Assembly (NCBI GenBank): GCA_022072055.1
Contig: JAJVIK010000008.1
Coordinates: 205,980 to 269,979 of the forward strand
Length of the DNA: 64,000 nucleotides
Direction: 5' to 3'
Source of the DNA: a bacterium
GTDB lineage: Bacteria > Hinthialibacterota > Hinthialibacteria > OLB16
Below the pieces are notes generated by a model. It did not search any database, was not told the origin of the DNA, and saw only the letters and a program-made list of their open reading frames with translations. The position numbers and the translations under genes were made by a program. The number at the start of each line of letters is the position of its first letter. Position 1 is the first letter of the stretch. This document shows, one piece after another, positions 18,426-21,418 of this stretch.

Positions 18426-18623
18426 ATGCCCAGTGCCACAATAAAACCTCGCTCAAGTTCGGTGTCGCAAAGCCTCCAGGATCTAATGGAAGATCAAGTT
18501 GTGAAGCCTGTCTTCGACCTTGATTCCATCTCGTCTCTTTGGCCTGTGGATGACGATCCCGATGAGCTTCTACGGTTCATCGCGGCTGAAAGAAAGCGGC
18601 GCCGGGAGAAGGAGAACTGTTGA
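18426..18623 (+). CDS. Antitoxin-like protein of a PIN toxin pair
   Basis: A 65-residue protein ahead of a PIN-domain gene, with the stop one base before the toxin GTG. The sequence is hydrophilic; the C-terminal part (DDPDELLRFIAAERKRRREK) would form the helix that wraps the toxin. This size, charge and placing fit a VapB-type antitoxin, though no DNA-binding domain is clear. A GAAAGGAG ribosome site precedes the start. The bases between 18360 and 18425 contain an A/T patch (TATTAT at 18380) that could be the -10 of its promoter. Confidence 0.6.
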   Translation: MPSATIKPRSSSVSQSLQDLMEDQVVKPVFDLDSISSLWPVDDDPDELLRFIAAERKRRREKENC

Positions 18624-18624
18624 G

Positions 18625-19077
18625 GTGGATTCCAGCGCGGCCGCGGTTGCCCTCCTCGATACAACCGTGGCGAGTTTTCTCCATCCCAAGAAAGCCGAGT
18701 CTAACGATCGCCGCCTCTATACCCCCCACATGGTCGGGAAGACCCCTGCTTTAAGCTTCCAGACTGTTGCGGAGCTTTTCGGCTGGGCCGAGCGAAACCG
18801 TTGGGGGGCAAGGCAGAAATTGGGGCTTGAGGAGTTCCTGCGAAGCTTCCTCGTCCTTGATTCCGACATCGAGCTCTCAAAGGTTTGGGCCGAGGTTATG
18901 GAGGCCAGCCGAAGAGAAGGGAGACGTCTTGAATCGGGCGATTGTTGGATTGCGGCGAGTGCAGTGCGCTACGGAATTCCCCTCTTAGCGCATGATGCGG
19001 ATTTCCTGGGGAGGTCCATACCCGGACTCGTGGTCATCAGTCATCTCCACGTGGGACATCCGGAAAGCTCCGCCTGA
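18625..19077 (+). CDS. PIN-domain toxin (VapC-like RNase)
   Basis: 150 residues from a GTG start with GAGAAGGAG eight bases upstream. The PIN acidic residues are present: Asp in VALLDTTVASFL near the N-terminus, Glu in LSFQTVAELFGW, Asp in SGDCWIAASAVRYG and Asp in LLAHDADF. These bind the metal used to cut RNA. The family acts on tRNA or rRNA and is blocked by a co-encoded antitoxin, here the gene just upstream. The end of the gene faces the LptA-like gene with only five bases between. Confidence 0.8.
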   Translation: MDSSAAAVALLDTTVASFLHPKKAESNDRRLYTPHMVGKTPALSFQTVAELFGWAERNRWGARQKLGLEEFLRSFLVLDSDIELSKVWAEVMEASRREGRRLESGDCWIAASAVRYGIPLLAHDADFLGRSIPGLVVISHLHVGHPESSA

Positions 19078-19872: not shown

Positions 19873-20646
19873 TTAAACCAAATCCCGGCCCGGAGTCCAA
19901 GCCCCTTGGGAAGGCCGGCCAAGCCCCGATTCGGCTTGCCCGGCGCCGCCCCGATCACACGGAGATTCTGGTCCGCGCAGTCTTGCCTGGAGCTCCTCAA
20001 TGCTCAGGACGGTTACGTCTCGATGGAGCATTGCATGGCAATTCGGGCAAACTGGCCTCAGGTCCTCAACCGGGTCCAAACGATACTCGCCATCAGTAAG
20101 GGCAATTGGTTTGAGATGATGAACATGGATGAAGTCCTTGCCAATTTCCCCGTATTTCTCCTCAAACAAAACGTGGCAGACCGCACACCTATAGCCGTGG
20201 TGTCTCAAGCACGCCTCTCGCGCTCTTGGATCACGCTCGTAGGCGTTCACCCGAATCTGTTTTCGCGCCCCTTCAGAGTACTTGCGGCCAAGCTCCAATT
20301 CATCCGGGAAGAGACGCTCGCGCTCACCAACGAGTCGAGCAGATTCCTCCTGGAATCTTCCCACCCTTTCAACCGCCTCCTGGATTTCTTCTGGGGTGAA
20401 AAGCGGTTGAAACAATGCTTGCTGGACGATTGCTTCCAAGGTGAGATCAGGACGACCCGCGGCAAGGAGCGGATCAAGTCCTTTACGCTGTCCTCTGTTT
20501 CGCTTCTTCAACATCCGCTTAGCCGTGGCAAGACCACCGTCCTTCCGGACAGATTGAAGGAAGCGAGTTCCTCAATAGCCGACTTCCTCACCTGATCGCT
20601 GATAGCCTGTTAAGAGTTCTTGCGTCAGGTCATCCTCCAGGCTCAT
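19873..20646 (-). pseudogene. HNH endonuclease gene interrupted by an in-frame TGA
   Basis: A single frame runs from the ATG at 20646 (SD GGAGGCGGAGA) to 19873, broken only by TGA at 20572-20574, codon 25. On either side the sequence is that of a known HNH family: before it QELLTGYQRSGEEVGY, after it GTRFLQSVRKDGGLATAKRM, where relatives have Trp, so TGG to TGA explains the stop. The HNH module is intact: CAVC, the HVHHLKPI core, LRPVCPNCHAMLHR. An internal ATG at 20514 could still give a 213-residue protein with the whole HNH domain but without about 45 N-terminal residues. The family is related to McrA-like nucleases. Upstream 20647-20838 is open in the same frame but does not look like part of the family. 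Confidence 0.8.
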
Positions 20647-20834
20647 GGGTCTCCGCCTCCAAGCGCGATCATGAGTTCTTACGAATGGGCCGAAATTATC
20701 CGAAAAAGTCGCAATTACATCGAATTTGACTGCATCGGCTCTGCCAAATGTGGACGGCGGGAGTGGGCTCCTGTCATCCAGCGGGAGATCGAAAGCTTCC
20801 TTCAGCCGCGCTCCAATTTCATTAGAGGCTAACT

Positions 20835-21215
20835 TCACTGACCGCGTTTGGGGAAGTAGCGAACACCCGCAATTCCCTGGAAATCTGAGTCTTGCGTCCA
20901 GAGGATCGCTCTAAAGCGCCGGGCGGTGGTCAACATCACGCTATCAGCCAAGGGAAGGCCGGTCTCGACTGACAGCTTCGCGGCGGAAAGGGCAAGTGCT
21001 GTATCAAGATCCACAACACGTCCCTGCCGCATGAGCGCAACAGATTCGAGCGCGACCGTTTCACCACGCTGCTTGAGGACACGCTTAAAGACTTCGAACA
21101 GGCTGATTGTAGGGACAATCAGCCGTTCAGTTGCGGCGAGTGGCCTCGCAAATGCCGCCGCATTGGGTCCATCTGCGAAATACTCAAGCCAACCTGAGGA
21201 GTCCACGATGTTCAT
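20835..21215 (-). CDS. vapC: VapC-type PIN-domain toxin
   Basis: 126 residues. PIN motifs are complete: MNIVDSSGWLEYF with the first Asp, Glu in ISLFEVFKR, Asp in GLPLADSVMLTTAR and Asp in LWTQDSDFQGI. VapC proteins cut tRNA or rRNA when freed from VapB. It overlaps its antitoxin gene by four bases (ATGA). The stop lies just before the region of the broken HNH gene. Confidence 0.88.
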   Translation of the reverse strand: MNIVDSSGWLEYFADGPNAAAFARPLAATERLIVPTISLFEVFKRVLKQRGETVALESVALMRQGRVVDLDTALALSAAKLSVETGLPLADSVMLTTARRFRAILWTQDSDFQGIAGVRYFPKRGQ

Positions 21216-21418
21216 ACGCGGTCTTCTTCCCGTTCCACCGTTGTGTCAATCGGCCCCAGGAAACCACGCGCCTCCCTAAGCGTGCGCACGGGGATCAGTT
21301 CAATCCGATTTCCGTATTGGATTGCATGAACGCGCTGACCCGGCTGGATGCCGAGGGCTTTGCGGATCGAACTCGGGATAACGACTCGATAACTGGGAGA
21401 AACGGTCACTGTGTCCAT
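21212..21418 (-). CDS. vapB: VapB-type antitoxin, AbrB/SpoVT fold
   Basis: 68 residues with the swapped-hairpin AbrB signature: VTVSPSYRVVIPSSIRKALG, followed by IQPGQRVHAIQYGNRIELIP. This DNA-binding module usually represses its own operon together with the toxin. The C-terminal ~20 residues (RGFLGPIDTTVEREE) are the toxin-binding tail. It is the first gene of the pair. No operator palindrome is clear in the 213 bases to the next gene, an MFS transporter on the other strand. Confidence 0.88.
   Translation of the reverse strand: MDTVTVSPSYRVVIPSSIRKALGIQPGQRVHAIQYGNRIELIPVRTLREARGFLGPIDTTVEREEDRV

Follow-up and report, generated by a model that had tools for sequence, protein, structure and literature searches.

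A single in-frame TGA codon, probably a very recent nonsense substitution, interrupts an HNH endonuclease gene in a Hinthialibacteria genome

The window analyzed here, a 64,000-nucleotide stretch of a Hinthialibacteria contig, carries on its minus strand an HNH endonuclease gene whose upstream neighbors encode a PIN-domain protein and a MazE-type antitoxin (Table 1). The HNH translation proceeds for 24 residues ending in GY, meets a TGA codon, resumes with GTRFLQ and then runs on to codon 257 with no further internal stop. Across 19873-20646 the other two minus-strand frames contain 9 and 17 stops, and one plus-strand frame has just 2, which represents an antisense shadow. Homology to relatives stays in register on both sides of the TGA, indicating that the HNH frame is not a chance open frame. 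The first-pass annotation had described the frame as perfect on either side of this codon, and both the translation and the in-register homology agree. The gene is present at a single locus in the source genome, and a search of that same assembly thus provides no independent reading of the TGA base.

Table 1. Coordinates of the features at the interrupted HNH locus (window positions; all on the minus strand).
Feature	Position	Residues or codons	Remarks
HNH endonuclease gene	19873..20646	257 codons plus terminal stop	Broken at codon 25; based on translation, Pfam and homologue alignment
In-frame TGA	20572..20574	codon 25	Trp place in 13 of 15 listed full-length homologues
N-terminal all-helical domain	20311..20646	residues 1-112	Without Pfam or PHROGs match
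HNH nuclease core	20020..20187	residues 154-209	Pfam PF01844
C-terminal tail	19876..19965	residues 228-257	Missing in most of the 15 listed homologues; predicted disordered
Ribosome-binding site (GGAGG) of the 20646 start	20656..20660		Duplex -9.3 kcal/mol; equalled or beaten by 6% of window ATGs
First start codon after the TGA	20512..20514	residue 45	Weak ribosome-binding site, -2.2 kcal/mol
PIN-domain (VapC-like) gene	20835..21215		Upstream neighbor
MazE-type antitoxin (VapB-like) gene	21212..21418		4-base overlap with the PIN gene

The first-pass identification as an HNH endonuclease is borne out by Pfam, which scores residues 154-209 at 26.5 bits against a cut-off of 21.4. The same family is matched at E 0.01 in all 16 aligned members, and C154, C157, H174, H176, H177, C200, N202, C203 and H208 do not vary across the 16 aligned rows, that of the window among them. 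We take these invariant His, Asn and Cys core residues to have a catalytic or metal-binding role. An AlphaFold2 model built from the 16 rows (mean pLDDT 78, pTM 0.45) places a mostly confident helical domain at residues 1-112, a low-confidence linker at 114-132, the HNH domain at approximately 140-224 and a low-confidence tail at the end. In this model, the turn that links helix 3-22 to helix 27-36 contains codon 25. Foldseek returned nothing at E 0.001 from the PDB or BFVD.

The N-terminal domain had no sequence match in Pfam, PHROG or the PDB (residues 1-112), and when used alone as the query it was matched in none of 15 other genomes. Structural comparison of residues 1-116 recovered assorted helical proteins. 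This helical domain may be an undescribed module. A version of about 105 residues forms a separate 108-residue open reading frame in a faecal phage record, MT835621.1 (marked unverified; L098:1977-2303), which is likewise unmatched in Pfam and PHROG. The domain also occurs in one open frame with HNH in two Paenibacillus loci (L068, about 1239-1439; L093, about 1242-1442) and in two IMG/VR contigs (L130, 1-222; L131, 670-891). We rejected a natural two-gene split at the domain boundary, because the stop falls after the first helix, inside a domain that MT835621.1 carries whole as a separate reading frame. At the other end of the protein, the C-terminal tail has GC contents of 0.78 and 0.72 at codon positions 1 and 2, compared with 0.68 and 0.41 in the core, and a stop in a different frame falls near the usual end of the family. 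The tail may stem from a second small alteration of the 3' end, or may be a variable tail like those of homologues L018 and L033.

To place the interrupted codon in its family, we scanned genome contigs with residues 45-257 and took the best 80 of at least 392 confirmed relatives. Fifteen of these 80 carry the N-terminal domain in the same arrangement and make up our full-length set, and two more (the Paenibacillus loci) have the N-terminal and HNH domains in one, longer open frame. The 15 listed homologues are 37-64% identical to the window protein and come from Brocadia and other Planctomycetes, Gemmatimonadetes, Binatota, Deltaproteobacteria, FCPU426, Pseudomonas, a Helicobacteraceae bacterium, Vibrio, Acidobacteria, Verrucomicrobia and others. 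The frame is open at the TGA place in all 15, against which the window gene displays the interrupted frame looked for in a pseudogene. Thirteen of them have Trp there, the exceptions being Arg in L026 and Lys in L033. All five nearest listed homologues (L015-L019) have Trp, and the nearest four, which are 57-64% identical, all read Gly-Tyr-Trp. In five more distantly related N-terminal domains the residue is Asn (L068, L093 and L098) or Arg (L130 and L131), giving 13 Trp, 3 Asn, 3 Arg and 1 Lys over the 20 listed domains; Trp therefore marks this branch rather than the whole domain family. Trp as the family residue is thus well supported by the alignment that the first-pass annotation had proposed when it assigned the gene to a family with Trp at this place. 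An in-frame TGA noted in locus L008 sits at its C-terminal end and is the normal stop of that gene.

The first-pass annotation also proposed a search for the intact gene in related genomes, and here the outcome was negative. With residues 45-257 as the query, no near copy was found in 97 other genomes (2 of the same family, 11 of the same class and 84 more distant, none of the same genus), and the matches obtained in 10 of the 97 were all at most 52% identical. Phage and plasmid searches returned 8 and 200 records, respectively, all below 60% identity, one of which covers at least 80% of the query. A scan of viral contigs yielded 69 loci, of which only L100 matched over nearly the full length; as its contig is as long as that of L022, this locus was not counted separately from L022.

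We next considered where translation of the gene begins. Ribosome-binding sites were scored as duplexes with a generic 16S tail and compared with the 1799 ATGs of the window; by this measure the site of the 20646 start is strong, whereas that of the ATG at 20514, which lies 57 bases beyond the TGA, is poor, being equalled or beaten by 79% of them. In all 15 listed full-length homologues, homologous sequence extends upstream of the 20514 position, and 14 have a start codon near the 20646 position, with the remaining one (L019) running off its contig. Residue 45 is an internal Met in 9 of these 15 as well. The 20514 ATG is therefore a conserved internal Met and not the start of the family, and the idea that homologues normally begin there, which the first-pass annotation named as the observation that would overturn its reading, does not hold for the listed set. 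However, a locus from a genome of the same class (L003:1468-2019) points the opposite way on start position, as its related 183-codon open frame begins only inside the N-terminal domain. The missing first half of that domain was not found within 3.5 kb, and L003 may represent a truncated copy, or its gene may really be shorter. In the same frame as the HNH gene and just ahead of its start, 20647-20838 forms a 64-codon open stretch, whose GTG overlaps the stop of the PIN gene. Searches at E 0.01 recovered no relative of this stretch from 97 other genomes or from plasmids, the homologue loci gave only chance-level matches (best E 0.42), and the 15 listed homologues do not carry it; we discarded it as a true N-terminal extension.

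We then asked whether the coding sequence beyond the TGA has decayed, since an old break would be expected to let changes accumulate at conserved columns. In leave-one-out comparisons over the 16-row alignment, the window protein, with Trp assumed at its stop, departs from 1 of 42 columns that do not vary in the other rows, a Leu to Ile change, and from 4 of 65 near-invariant columns; the 15 intact genes break 0-4 and 0-14, respectively, in a test that is rough in that related rows are not independent. There is thus no excess of changes at conserved columns past the TGA, and a single codon suffices to account for the break, as first proposed. Conservation equal to that of intact relatives indicates that the break is either very recent or an assembly error, in keeping with the initial choice between a recent event and a sequencing error.

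The composition of the gene fits a foreign origin. Its GC3 of 0.55 lies below the median of 0.75 across 43 long window ORFs, a mechanically chosen set that includes some antisense ORFs and in which three score lower. The low GC3, the few genome matches and the scatter of homologues over many phyla are consistent with a probable horizontal acquisition of the HNH gene. The adjacent PIN and antitoxin genes also fall below the window median, with a GC3 of 0.59, and the plus strand carries another PIN-domain gene within 18520-19077. Neither the upstream PIN protein nor its antitoxin was matched at E 0.01 in the homologue loci, taken with up to 2 kb on each side for genome contigs and 1.5 kb for viral contigs, and within these flanks we rejected a conserved neighborhood. 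Among these loci, L017 adjoins a GIY-YIG gene and L018 a different PIN gene.

Based on these findings, we favor a single nonsense substitution, of very recent origin, at codon 25 of the probably horizontally acquired HNH gene, and consider this the probable, though by no means assured, explanation. The intact gene would encode a helical domain at the N-terminus and an HNH domain, with a disordered linker between them. Translation begun at 20646 would end within the first domain, 24 residues on, so that no full-length enzyme would be made and the gene would in practice be off. We infer that the organism genuinely carries this base and that the gene, so truncated, is without function. The lack of decay is also what one would expect of a gene that is still used, and an assembly or consensus error explains every observation equally well.

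Under that last alternative, the TGA is a sequencing or consensus error, or a minority-strain variant fixed in the assembly, and the gene is whole in the organism. Conservation of the rest of the protein at the level of its intact relatives fits such an artefact, as does the nature of the assembly, whose 32 contigs and 2.05% estimated contamination are consistent with a metagenome-assembled genome without proving one. Long-read errors are more typically insertions and deletions than single substitutions, which would speak against an artefact if long reads were used here. We regard this account as unlikely, but as having a real chance of being correct.

The gene could also retain low-level function, either because the TGA is leaky and Trp is inserted or because translation restarts at 20514 to give an N-terminally shortened nuclease. 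Passages of a survey of bacterial genomes (PMC7918605) describe UGA as leaky with insertion of Trp, and the absence of visible relaxation after the TGA agrees with continued use. The same passages warn that an in-frame stop unaccompanied by other decay is a poor guide to pseudogene status, and that such stops, which are short-lived, also arise from sequencing errors, annotation artefacts and true pseudogenes. The term "inactivated" is therefore likely but provisional for this gene, judged as it is from sequence. As to a restart, the first-pass annotation had suggested that the HNH core could still be made from the 20514 ATG. This stands insofar as the HNH domain lies wholly after 20514, and the same-class L003 frame, beginning where it does, lends the idea some support. 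It is weakened by the distance of this ATG from the stop, by its poor ribosome-binding site and by the AlphaFold2 model, in which restarting at residue 45 would remove helices 3-22, 27-36 and 38-45 and leave the HNH domain in place. Readthrough finds little encouragement in the tRNA-Trp of the source genome, which has a CCA anticodon and a complete 5-base-pair anticodon stem and so is not the UGA-reading type with a 4-base-pair stem described in PMC13092985. We therefore hold residual function to be distinctly unlikely. Still less plausible is the more specific proposal that the early TGA is a leaky stop kept to hold a potentially self-damaging HNH nuclease at a trickle. If this were true, full-length protein would be made only when UGA is misread as Trp, and a shorter form would arise by restart at 20514.

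Finally, TGA is an ordinary stop codon in the source genome. Trp is the family residue at this place, and reassigned TGA codons usually encode Trp, yet genome-wide reassignment is practically excluded by a release factor 2 gene (prfB) scoring above cut-off, by TGA terminating 37 of the 55 open stretches of at least 300 codons on both strands of the window, and by the absence of a UCA (TCA) anticodon from all 47 detected tRNA genes, each read with ARAGORN. An unusual tRNA, for example the one for selenocysteine, could escape the general tRNA model.

An interrupted HNH gene is an ordinary kind of event, and the favored substitution at codon 25 bears mainly on annotation. The locus is better recorded as a nonsense-interrupted HNH gene with its start at 20646 than as an intact one beginning at 20514. 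Gene-finding software that chose 20514 would hide the break and yield a protein with a shortened N-terminal domain.

Several known systems can be compared with the window gene. In a profile comparison, the HNH domain matches EcoKMcrA, a modification-dependent type IV restriction enzyme (PDB 6ghc), with an E value of 1.1e-6 over profile positions 116-214. The structures align with a Z score of 6.2 and an rmsd of 5.3 over 85 residues, values that may mean only a common arrangement, and CBASS Cap5 chains tie with this match at Z scores of 6.1-6.9. Unlike the HNH part, the N-terminal domain has no sequence match to EcoKMcrA. The PADLOC type IV models gave weak matches to the HNH part only, and the model for a phosphorothioated-DNA restriction enzyme (NF045808) scored 20.4 bits against a cut-off of 180. 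The genes treated in the cited passages of PMC7918605 resemble the window gene in that they carry a single in-frame stop under purifying selection, just as the window gene has one stop and no decay at conserved columns; however, that survey used only stops common to at least two species, whereas the window stop is seen in one assembly. The homologue from Candidatus Brocadia sp. WS118 (L015:1869-2555) differs from the window gene in having an uninterrupted frame of 228 residues without the long C-terminal tail, but shares the same two-domain layout, is 64% identical in the 16-row alignment and has Gly-Tyr-Trp-Gly at the place of the window TGA.
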